This document shows positions 46,937 through 50,910 of a stretch of DNA of 64,000 nucleotides, piece after piece (position 1 is the stretch's first letter; each line of letters opens with the position of its first letter). This stretch comes from Pseudobdellovibrionaceae bacterium (GTDB lineage: Bacteria; Bdellovibrionota; Bdellovibrionia; Bdellovibrionales; Bdellovibrionaceae). The notes under the pieces are model-generated. The model was given only the letters and a program-made list of their open reading frames with translations. It was not told where the DNA came from and made no database searches. Position numbers and translations under genes: made by a program. The stretch lies in the NCBI GenBank assembly GCA_947449255.1, contig CANFQX010000011.1, forward strand, positions 1 through 64,000. The letters are read 5' to 3'.

Positions 46937-47335
46937 GTCTTTTCCTTTTTTCTAATAGTAAACATAAAAAATTGTCTAAACACATGAGATATTACACCCA
47001 AAAACTTGACAAGACTTGAGTTACACAAACTGTCATTTAGTCCAGGAATAAATCCAACATCCTCTTAAAAAATGGACCTCGTCCTAAATCCATCCCAAAA
47101 ATATGCACCCATTTTCATAAGATATTAAGTGATAGCGTGACCTTTTATGAACATCCACAAACAGTCGAATGATCAACCTAACAATGGCAATTTTGTGCAT
47201 GAGTAACATTACGACAATCCTTGAACAATTTTCCTTATCTTATCTGAAAGTCTTGTCTGAATTTGCCATTAATTGACTTATAAGTAACCTTTGTTTATTC
47301 ATTAGCTTCCAATATTAAAAAAGGGGGGCCTTTCT

Positions 47336-47473
47336 ATGGAAAAACTTAAAACTGTAAAAACTAAACTAATAAACTATGCAATGATGATCCCGATTCTTTC
47401 ATTACTAGTTGCATCTTTTATCATTACCCACTCTCAAGATGTATTAGCGAACGGAACAACAACGGGGAAGTAA
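47336..47473 (+). CDS. 45-aa secreted peptide precursor (candidate signal peptide/pheromone)
   Basis: Not in supplied ORF track; MEKLKTVKTKLINYAMMIPILSLLVASFIITHSQDVLANGTTTGK*; G-rich RBS upstream; stop overlaps next ATG (TAATG). Confidence 0.6.
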   Translation: MEKLKTVKTKLINYAMMIPILSLLVASFIITHSQDVLANGTTTGK

Positions 47474-48201
47474 TGCAATTGATCACTGGATTTCATGGAG
47501 ATACATATTATGAATCTTTTGTTGGGAAGAACCCAAGCAAAGAGGCTGTCGTATTTTTACATGGATACCCTGCTGATCAAGGAAACAAGAATAGAGATTT
47601 AGCAGAGGCGGTCTCTACCCAACTTGGCAAGGATGCCTTCTTATTGCACTATCCTGGGCTCGGGTTAAGCAAAGGCAAATTCACTTTTAGTGAAACACTA
47701 AGAACAACAAGGGAATTCCTATCCTGGGTCAAAGCTAAAAATTATCAATCTCTCCACATCGTTGGTCACTCATGGGGTGGCTTTCTAGCGTTGAATCTTC
47801 TGAATGAAATTGGTCACACAGGCAAAATTGTGCTTTTATCCCCTTTTGTAAATCTACCGGAAGGAAGCGACTTAAGTACCCTTGTCAATTTAGTTTATTC
47901 TGACACAAAACAATACCTAGGACACTCAACCATCATTGAGGTAGTGAGTGAACTAACAAAAATGCGCATAGGTAATTCAATCGATGATTTTATTGTTCGA
48001 ATTGATAAAGCACCAAATCAAGTTACAATTATCCAAGCGCTTAACGATCCGGAAACACCAGAGAAATATTCAAGATATCTAATTTCAAAAGCTACAAAAA
48101 AAATCAGTTACACAGAGCTCGACACCGATCATTCATTTACACAAAACCGAACCACAGCGTTGGCTTTAATAATCAATACTTTGCGTGTCCCAAATGATTA
48201 A
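47473..48201 (+). CDS. Alpha/beta hydrolase
   Basis: VVFLHGYPADQGNKNRD, nucleophile elbow GHSWGG, C-terminal DTDHSF. Confidence 0.88.
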   Translation: MQLITGFHGDTYYESFVGKNPSKEAVVFLHGYPADQGNKNRDLAEAVSTQLGKDAFLLHYPGLGLSKGKFTFSETLRTTREFLSWVKAKNYQSLHIVGHSWGGFLALNLLNEIGHTGKIVLLSPFVNLPEGSDLSTLVNLVYSDTKQYLGHSTIIEVVSELTKMRIGNSIDDFIVRIDKAPNQVTIIQALNDPETPEKYSRYLISKATKKISYTELDTDHSFTQNRTTALALIINTLRVPND

Positions 48202-48814
48202 CCTTTATCGTCGCTATTCATTGATAAAAAAAGCCAATTTAGATAATTCAATTATCAATATCTCCAGCGCTACAAAGGTTTATTCAACAAATACATCATC
48301 TATCTCAATAGTGAATGGTGTCTTTCAATTCGGATATTCATTTGGAACTGATTACCCATCTGAGCAGGGCGCCTTAATAAAATTAGGCCAAAATTCAAAA
48401 ATAATTGTGAGGGGTAAAGTTTTAATAGGCCCAGGGAGTTCTATTGTCGTTCATGATAATGGAACTCTAGTTTTCGAAGGTGAAAATGCCATTGCTCACA
48501 ACAATAAAATCTATTGCCATACCAATATAACGTTTGGGTCTGGGACGTGCACCTCGTGGAACTGCTCTTTTATGGATTTTGATGGTCATCATTTCAATCG
48601 TTTAGATGGACAAAACAAGGACTACCAAAAACCCTTAATTATCGGACGGAAAGTTGGCATTCAACAAAATGTAATCATCCCAAAAGGTGTTTCTGTAGGC
48701 GATCACTCAATCATTTCGGCGGGGACAATCTTACGACAAGATATTCCAGAAAACTGCCTAGTGCATTCCAACTCCGAAATAAGGATTAAACATGGATACC
48801 AATCTGGCCTATAA
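48194..48814 (+). CDS. Left-handed beta-helix (hexapeptide repeat) acyltransferase
   Basis: IIGRKVGIQQNVIIPKGVSVGDHSIISAGTILRQDIPENCLVHSN; ATG overlaps hydrolase stop. Confidence 0.82.
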   Translation: MINLYRRYSLIKKANLDNSIINISSATKVYSTNTSSISIVNGVFQFGYSFGTDYPSEQGALIKLGQNSKIIVRGKVLIGPGSSIVVHDNGTLVFEGENAIAHNNKIYCHTNITFGSGTCTSWNCSFMDFDGHHFNRLDGQNKDYQKPLIIGRKVGIQQNVIIPKGVSVGDHSIISAGTILRQDIPENCLVHSNSEIRIKHGYQSGL

Positions 48815-50120
48815 AACGAATCCTCGAGATCAAATTCCAGGGCTGTTGATGATCGCGTTAGGCTGGATCCTTTTCCTAACAAGTGCACTTAATTACCGCG
48901 CCGTCTCGTGGTTCAACTACCTATTTTACGGCAGACTTCTTGCCTTCATTAGCGCTGTCGGGTTGGTTTTTATAATTGCACTCAACAAAAACTCCAAATT
49001 TAAAGACACATGGTTCTATACTATGTGTCTGGGTCTGCAAGCATTGCATGGTATTCTTGAGGGACAATCACAGACTGACTTTTACTCGTATACTGGTTTG
49101 TTTTACATCATTGCAGCTTTATCTACTCGATGCTCTTTGCGTGATTGGCTATTGAAGCTCTTTCCTTTACAGATTTTATTTCTTATTGCGCCGCTTTTTT
49201 TTAAATCTCCTCAATTCTTTACCTCAATTGCCAAATTTGTCGATTCATTCAGTCTCCCCGTTTCAGGATTTATCGTAGGAACAATAATCGTCTGGATTAA
49301 TATCCAGAGATTTCAGACATTAATTGACAACCTACGCTTAAAACATGAACTAGCTGAAAGCAGACACGCGCTTCTGCAAAAAGAAAAAGAAAAAGTGCAG
49401 GAAATTGCTTTCGAATTAGAAATCGCAAAAAATGAACTCATCAAACATGCCGAAAATAAAGCCATGGTTGAAGTCGCAGCACAAGTGGCGCATGACATCA
49501 GAAGTCCTCTATCTGCACTTATGATGGTTATAGGAATGCTCAAAGACTTACCGAAAGAAAAAAAAGAACTTCTACTAAATGCAACAAAAAGAATAGACGG
49601 AATTGCTAATGACCTTTTAAATAAAAGTAAAACGCCGTCAGAAAAAACTAAAAGCAATGATGATTTTGCAAAGCCTTATGTTGTCATAAAAGAAATTATA
49701 GATGAAAAGAAAATCCTATTTTCTGATAAAATTGGGTTAAATTTATATTCTGAAATTCAAAAGATTGAAGATTTAAAAGTTGGCATGACAGCCCACGACC
49801 TCTCCAGAATCCTGTCTAATCTAATTAACAATGCGATCGAAGCATTTGAAAACTTTCAGGGCACTGTAACTGTTGCTGCAAAAAAAGGTCCCAATGCGAT
49901 CAACATTGATATTACAGACAATGGAAAAGGTATTCCCCAAGAAATATTAGAAAAAATTGGTGTACGCGGTTTTTCCAGCGGCAAAGAGGGAACTCAGTCA
50001 GGTAGCGGACTAGGGGTCTGGTCAGCAAAAAAAATTATTGAAGCAGCTGGTGGGGAATTCACAATATCCTCAAAACAAGGTGAAGGAACTCAAATTCACA
50101 TTACACTTCCAACTCTATAG
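48792..50120 (+). CDS. Sensor histidine kinase with multi-TM N-terminus
   Basis: Several hydrophobic segments, VAHDIRSPLSALM H-box, NLINNAIEAFE N-box, ITDNGKGIPQEI, GSGLGVWSAKKII. Confidence 0.9.
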   Translation: MDTNLAYKTNPRDQIPGLLMIALGWILFLTSALNYRAVSWFNYLFYGRLLAFISAVGLVFIIALNKNSKFKDTWFYTMCLGLQALHGILEGQSQTDFYSYTGLFYIIAALSTRCSLRDWLLKLFPLQILFLIAPLFFKSPQFFTSIAKFVDSFSLPVSGFIVGTIIVWINIQRFQTLIDNLRLKHELAESRHALLQKEKEKVQEIAFELEIAKNELIKHAENKAMVEVAAQVAHDIRSPLSALMMVIGMLKDLPKEKKELLLNATKRIDGIANDLLNKSKTPSEKTKSNDDFAKPYVVIKEIIDEKKILFSDKIGLNLYSEIQKIEDLKVGMTAHDLSRILSNLINNAIEAFENFQGTVTVAAKKGPNAINIDITDNGKGIPQEILEKIGVRGFSSGKEGTQSGSGLGVWSAKKIIEAAGGEFTISSKQGEGTQIHITLPTL

Positions 50121-50836: not shown

Positions 50837-50910
50837 TGGAGGTGACGAGCGGATTTGAACCGCTGTAGCAGCTTTTGCAGAGCTGAGCCTAGCCACTCGG
50901 CCACATCACC
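50837..50910 (-). tRNA. tRNA-Cys (GCA)
   Basis: RC GGTGATGTGGCCGAGTGGCTAGGCTCAGCTCTGCAAAAGCTGCTACAGCGGTTCAAATCCGCTCGTCACCTCCA; U73. Confidence 0.95.

Follow-up and report, generated by a model that had tools for sequence, protein, structure and literature searches.

What does a 45-aa open reading frame encode that directly precedes the genes of a hydrolase, an acyltransferase and a sensor histidine kinase in a Bdellovibrio-group bacterium, and does it belong to a signalling system? The locus lies in a 64,000-nucleotide stretch of DNA (the window), which is part of a 3.2-Mb assembly (G000), and 23 other genomes of the same genus were compared with it. Its four genes (peptide, hydrolase, acyltransferase and kinase) run in the same direction, overlap by 1, 8 and 23 nt and are found with the following features.

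47323 to 47328, plus strand: Shine-Dalgarno-like GGGGGG ahead of the peptide ORF (sequence; an SD-like purine-rich motif lies upstream of the ATG in 7/7 homologous peptide ORFs)
47336 to 47473, plus strand: 45-aa peptide, probably membrane-inserted or exported, MEKLKTVKTKLINYAMMIPILSLLVASFIITHSQDVLANGTTTGK, of a new small-peptide family (homologous loci, profiles)
47473 to 48201, plus strand: alpha/beta serine hydrolase, 242 aa (Pfam, alignment, solved-structure profile, AF2, Foldseek)
48194 to 48814, plus strand: left-handed beta-helix (LbH, hexapeptide) O-acetyltransferase, 206 aa, or 209 aa from GTG 48185 (profile, alignment)
48792 to 50120, plus strand: sensor histidine kinase, 442 aa (Pfam HisKA and HATPase_c)
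48792 to 49435, plus strand: sensor domain of the kinase, six predicted membrane helices and then a long signalling helix (AF2)
49467 to 50111, plus strand: kinase core, HisKA at residues 226-280 and HATPase at residues 335-440 (Pfam; identity comparisons)
50837 to 50910, minus strand: tRNA-Cys bordering the cassette-bearing variable region (ComM/tRNA-Cys conserved in G019 and G004)

Coordinates, reading frames and the 45-aa sequence confirm the four overlapping genes described in the initial annotation, and its assignment of the three larger products to a hydrolase, a hexapeptide acyltransferase and a kinase is upheld by Pfam and profile searches. The peptide ORF, with aaaaaaGGGGGGcctttct upstream of its ATG, shares one nucleotide with the hydrolase start (TAATG, 47471 to 47475). 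The acyltransferase likely begins at ATG 48194, within the last 8 nt of the hydrolase gene, an alternative start at GTG 48185 being also possible, and its end at 48814 overlaps the kinase ATG at 48792 by 23 nt. Judging from these overlaps, the four genes may be translationally coupled. A promoter and terminator scan of the locus stayed at or below chance, and of the cassette proteins PADLOC anti-phage defence models matched, weakly, only the generic ATPase part of the kinase.

Homologous cassettes with the order peptide, hydrolase, acetyltransferase and kinase occur across further genera and families within the phylum. The whole kinase, used as bait, drew mainly unrelated paralogues via its core, and the sensor domain was therefore used instead; its profile matched 8 of 369 phylum genomes, with two further weak matches. 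Together, the hydrolase, O-acetyltransferase and six-TM kinase are found in at least six other Bdellovibrionota-type genomes. The cassette is rare (about 2% of the phylum genomes). Within the family of the window, hydrolase and acyltransferase stand side by side in one other genome, G087, which belongs to another genus and carries small ORF, hydrolase, acyltransferase and kinase with similarly short spacings. The full cassette is also present in G268, G328, G355 and G174. G152 begins inside the acyltransferase at a contig end, G255 holds an orphan kinase, and an acyltransferase scan of GTDB genomes added a cassette from an "uncultured proteobacterium" (L066). In G355 the acyltransferase frame is interrupted mid-way (L052:1571-2202), either through a genuine mutation or because of faulty assembly. 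The comparisons below draw on seven loci, mostly from metagenome assemblies. Among the 23 other genomes of the genus we found no convincing orthologue of the hydrolase or the acyltransferase, the sole hydrolase match (G020) being weak (9e-9). A first scan of genome contigs with a two-row profile found no relatives, viral contigs contained no relatives, and the plasmids searched held no close relative of the acyltransferase. Stand-alone hydrolase homologues in genera g6 and g3, of which two listed loci (G086 and G028) show neither peptide nor kinase next to the hydrolase, were set aside, as were acyltransferase matches from Bacteroidales and Planctomycetota, whose listed neighbours differ from the cassette and include polysaccharide-type genes.

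A similar small ORF at orthologous loci and a conserved reading frame, on which the initial annotation had made its proposal depend, are both found. In all seven loci with a complete upstream side, an ORF of 43-55 aa directly precedes the hydrolase and residue-level similarity is kept. Common to the family are a basic N-terminus, a P-x-x-S block where the hydrophobic stretch begins and variable C-terminal tails; the Ser of this block is present in 7/7 peptides, the Pro in 6/7, and a Lys or Arg stands six residues before the Pro in 6/7. None of 5000 shuffles reached the score of the ungapped 22-residue block anchored on P-x-x-S by eye, also when hydropathy classes were kept. An abutting ATG ORF of 40-60 aa with a basic n-region, a hydrophobic core and an SD-like motif precedes 6 of the 238 ORFs of at least 200 aa in the scanned loci, all six being cassette hydrolases, while none of the other ~232 has one with the SD; these criteria were set after the peptides were known, which inflates the contrast. 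When the window peptide is left out of the profile, the search still recovers it among 7203 small ORFs (E=1.1e-5). Leave-one-out profiles likewise recover the peptides of G268, G355 and G328 (E 1.1e-5 to 0.02 for these four) and miss those of G087, G174 and L066, which are assigned by position and the ungapped block. In the 369 phylum genomes, the full peptide profile finds the six cassette genomes at E <= 3.4e-10 and its next best match at 2e-3; since it was trained on the peptides of these same six genomes, what carries information is the lack of matches in the others. The peptide gene is linked to the sensor in 7/7 complete loci, and the profile is specific to cassette genomes. None of the seven peptides matches Pfam below E=0.1. 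Taken together, sequence comparison indicates that the 45-aa ORF is a real conserved gene rather than a chance frame.

A real frame might still be a mere leader, translated or untranslated (a leader peptide or an attenuator), that aids translation of the hydrolase and whose product has no function. Its constant position directly ahead of the hydrolase, often overlapping the start of that gene, is in line with such a role, yet residues are conserved across families, a run of regulatory codons is absent, and in L066 at least 46 nt lie between the peptide ORF and the first in-frame hydrolase start. We regard this explanation as highly improbable.

The last 11 residues of the peptides are far less alike than the 22-residue block, which amounts to the leader/core pattern of precursor peptides. 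The initial annotation had proposed that signal peptidase releases the heptapeptide NGTTTGK. An Ala with a permitted residue at -3 stands near the C-terminus of every peptide; its distance differs among peptides, the tails vary in length and sequence and several c-regions are long, so that the position of the signal-peptidase-like site is not conserved and release of NGTTTGK is not supported as a family trait. What is conserved in the peptide is its membrane block, and such a block would be just as fitting in a membrane protein that regulates the kinase. MgrB is a 47-aa membrane protein that inhibits PhoQ, and proteins of the MgrB/SafA kind are about 47 aa long with a single hydrophobic segment and act in principle on a membrane kinase (PMC8404706). 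Size and topology of the cassette peptides are similar. The peptide could hence be an intracellular single-pass regulator that binds the six-TM domain, with the enzymes acetylating and de-esterifying an envelope polymer and the kinase reading the state of the envelope instead of other cells. A conserved N-terminal membrane block with an invariant Ser and a near-invariant Pro fits this proposal. In contrast to MgrB and SafA, the cassette peptides lack a Pfam family match, stand in an operon with enzymes and kinase and have variable tails, and these tails, together with the patchy distribution, are more in keeping with a signal than with a housekeeping role in the envelope.

The two enzymes bear on this question as well. 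The hydrolase carries a GHSWGG nucleophile motif and the conserved Asp and His of the triad, is esterase/S33-like and has no signal peptide. Pfam confirms the alpha/beta hydrolase, as it does HisKA and HATPase_c in the kinase, and the AF2 model (pLDDT 88) matches feruloyl esterases, a dehalogenase and monoglyceride lipases in Foldseek. An apparently exported form of the G328 hydrolase was set aside, because an internal ATG with its own GGAGA would give a cytoplasmic form. The hexapeptide repeat of the acetyltransferase stays below threshold in Pfam; a profile search finds O-acetyltransferases of the LacA/Maa type, namely galactoside and maltose O-acetyltransferases. With hexapeptide repeats and a catalytic-type His in a conserved SWNxxxxDxDGH, the protein has the features of the LbH LacA/Maa family. 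Conserved catalytic residues suggest no more than that both proteins are probably active enzymes. Polysaccharide acetyltransferases occur among the LbH acetyltransferase matches, as an envelope role would have it, but at no locus does the cassette contain polymer-synthesis genes, and we consider an MgrB-like peptide combined with envelope-modifying enzymes rather unlikely.

Membership of esterase and sugar or small-molecule O-acetyltransferase families also invites a different idea, in which both enzymes make or trim a small, probably lipophilic signal that the six-TM kinase senses, comparable to CAI-1 and LAI-1 with CqsS and LqsS, while the peptide is an accessory, an anchor or a chaperone of the enzymes or the sensor. 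The architecture of the kinase lends itself to this. CqsS and LqsS have six-TM sensor domains with short loops and without ligand-binding extracellular loops, and their known ligands are lipophilic (PMC4821796). In the AF2 model the window sensor domain likewise appears as six membrane helices (residues 11-35, 41-64, 71-89, 98-110, 116-137 and 146-~170) with short connections and a long helix (pLDDT 78, pTM 0.57), and it is predicted to be joined directly to HisKA/HATPase. The CqsA/CqsS and LqsA/LqsS systems of Vibrio and Legionella also place a signal-making gene near a kinase of this sensor type (PMC4821796). However, the first gene of the cassette encodes a peptide, the ORF lists of the cassette loci contain no synthase-type gene like CqsA or LqsA, and neither enzyme resembles a known autoinducer synthase. 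The cassette sensor domain itself has no match in sequence or detectable fold in searches of Pfam, NCBIfam, PDB and Foldseek, which sets it apart from CqsS and LqsS. Neither a Pfam or NCBIfam family nor a PDB sequence matched it, and Foldseek returned nothing significant, the six-TM cyclase Rv1625c reaching a non-significant TM of 0.35. A small-molecule signal would, moreover, leave the constant first-gene peptide with its conserved membrane block and variable tail unexplained, and among the 369 phylum genomes this peptide occurs only with the cassette.

Several cassette homologues resemble hybrid kinases such as CqsS and LqsS in having a receiver-like C-terminus. By eye, the DD, D, S and K positions of such a domain are present in the G087, G268, G328, G355 and G152 kinases; that of G087 goes unrecognised by Pfam, and the window kinase has no C-terminal receiver domain. 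In L066 a gene for an NtrC-type sigma-54 response regulator (L066:3445-4938) ends ~60 nt upstream of the peptide gene, and its product is a candidate cognate regulator. In two Bacteriovoracaceae genomes the cassette kinase is followed by a receiver-like domain, separate or fused, that ends in HPPF (L053:7251-7586 and L054:537-2594).

How the parts of the cassette diverge separates the sensor domain from the kinase core. Pairwise identities with permutation tests relate sensor-domain divergence to that of the acetyltransferase (r 0.72, p 0.013), the hydrolase (r 0.55, p 0.007) and, weakly, the peptide (r 0.40, p 0.045), whereas core divergence correlates with none of these three; these are ten tests on six or seven loci with uncorrected p values. 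The window sensor domain (48% identity), hydrolase (37%) and acetyltransferase (51%) are each closest to those of G268. The window core is 34% identical to that of G268, 34-40% to those of cassette kinases and 42-48% to kinases of its own genome, and the L066 core is quite different from all others (21-27%). Because the sensor domain tracks the enzymes and weakly the peptide, while the core does not, peptide, enzymes and sensor domain behave as an inherited unit, and the sensor domain would have travelled with them and been joined to local kinase cores. If the kinase senses a product of the cassette, the sensor domain and not the core should follow the cassette, as observed. That it tracks the enzymes more strongly than the peptide favours a small-molecule signal; in view of all these points we nevertheless judge such a signal unlikely.

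The nearest cassette belongs to another family of the order and not to G087 of the same family, which suggests horizontal transfer. The genomic site agrees with this: one side is shared with G019 (XerC, ComM and tRNA-Cys) and with G004 (ComM and tRNA-Cys), while beyond the tRNA-Cys the window, G019 and G004 all differ. In the genus genomes examined, the tRNA-Cys next to ComM (window:50837-50910) may be an insertion hot spot. Near the cassette, two tandem ORFs for subtilase-like secreted proteases (566 and 561 aa) lie on the minus strand (window:40786-44413).

The initial annotation had likened the locus to the Agr and Com systems of Gram-positive bacteria. Like these, it encodes a polytopic histidine kinase together with a short, exported-type peptide whose leader is conserved and whose C-terminus varies. 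Membership does not hold, since the cassette has no AgrB/AgrD or ComAB-like partner: processing or export proteins of the AgrB, ComQ or ComAB type are absent from it, no AgrB-like gene appears in the ORF lists of the seven loci, and the window peptide has no cysteine. In place of such proteins the cassette encodes a hydrolase and an LbH acetyltransferase. The window kinase has a HisKA/HATPase_c core (HATPase_c at 1.9e-23 with a HisKA match; HATPase_c_5 weaker) and not one of the HPK10 type. A six-TM sensor is predicted in the cassette kinase as in the HPK10 kinase of Agr, but the two are unrelated by profile.

From the earlier proposal we retain peptide signalling by a conserved four-gene cassette, without NGTTTGK release and without a place among Agr or Com. 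We give a probability of about one in two to an autoinducer-type system encoded in cis, whose peptide, either inserted into the membrane or exported, is sensed in the membrane by the six-TM kinase. The 45-aa product would be made first and would either insert N-in into the inner membrane or be exported via its basic and hydrophobic segment. Its variable C-terminal part, processed or not, would be the signal or signal precursor, and the cytoplasmic serine hydrolase and the LbH O-acetyltransferase may mature or tune it, as ester writer and eraser or by processing. Recognition of the product by the sensor domain, in or at the membrane, would control autophosphorylation of the core, from which phosphate may pass to a response regulator encoded elsewhere in the genome. 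The module would be self-contained and probably horizontally mobile. A six-TM domain with minimal loops speaks for a signal sensed in the membrane and against a soluble heptapeptide; of the proposed kinase that senses a processed peptide, the tie between sensor domain and cassette thus survives and the heptapeptide ligand becomes doubtful. This reading builds on gene order, the peptide family, its co-occurrence with the cassette, the parallel divergence of sensor domain and enzymes and the independent core; from these we infer a peptide that serves as the ligand, is a target of the enzymes and acts between cells. Against it speak the cytoplasmic-type hydrolase and acetyltransferase, which resemble small-molecule or sugar enzymes more than peptide enzymes, and the lack of a dedicated exporter or protease gene in the cassette.

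Searches of open-access full texts turned up no peptide signalling system in Bdellovibrio or its relatives, and the cassette, which seems to be a signalling system complete in itself, would be of a kind new to this group. Tentatively, and at rather less than even odds, it can be seen as a pheromone system of Gram-negative Bdellovibrionota and their relatives that uses a genetically encoded, enzymatically modified peptide. Both the precursor-peptide family and the six-TM receptor family would then be new, and the receptor would read the peptide in the membrane and be joined to different kinase cores as the module passes from one genome to another. Being conserved, unannotated and linked to a sensor domain, the peptide family is a signalling candidate that can be tested directly. 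The receptor module appears to move between kinase cores, and sensor-domain chimeras are a tool for finding the ligand.

Kinases with a related core adjoin YcaO proteins, SBP5-type binding or SBP-like proteins and signal-sequence small proteins in the window genome (contig 21), G030 and G035. By the coordinates of both match sets, the family has at least eight loci with adjacent kinase and YcaO genes. Three such loci (L059:3842-9000 on G000 contig 21, L056 and L062) encode a signal-sequence small protein, an SBP5-type or SBP-like protein, a YcaO-domain protein and a histidine kinase. Like the cassette, they combine a related kinase core with a peptide-type modifying enzyme and a signal-sequence small protein. 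They differ in that YcaO and SBP5 replace hydrolase and acetyltransferase, the sensor part is not the six-TM domain, and the small proteins, which are longer, show no sequence relationship to the cassette peptides. This looks like a second, YcaO-based signalling arrangement and supports, short of proof, the idea that kinases of this group are more widely coupled to signals of the peptide type. HPPF-like endings are also present in the YcaO-linked kinases.
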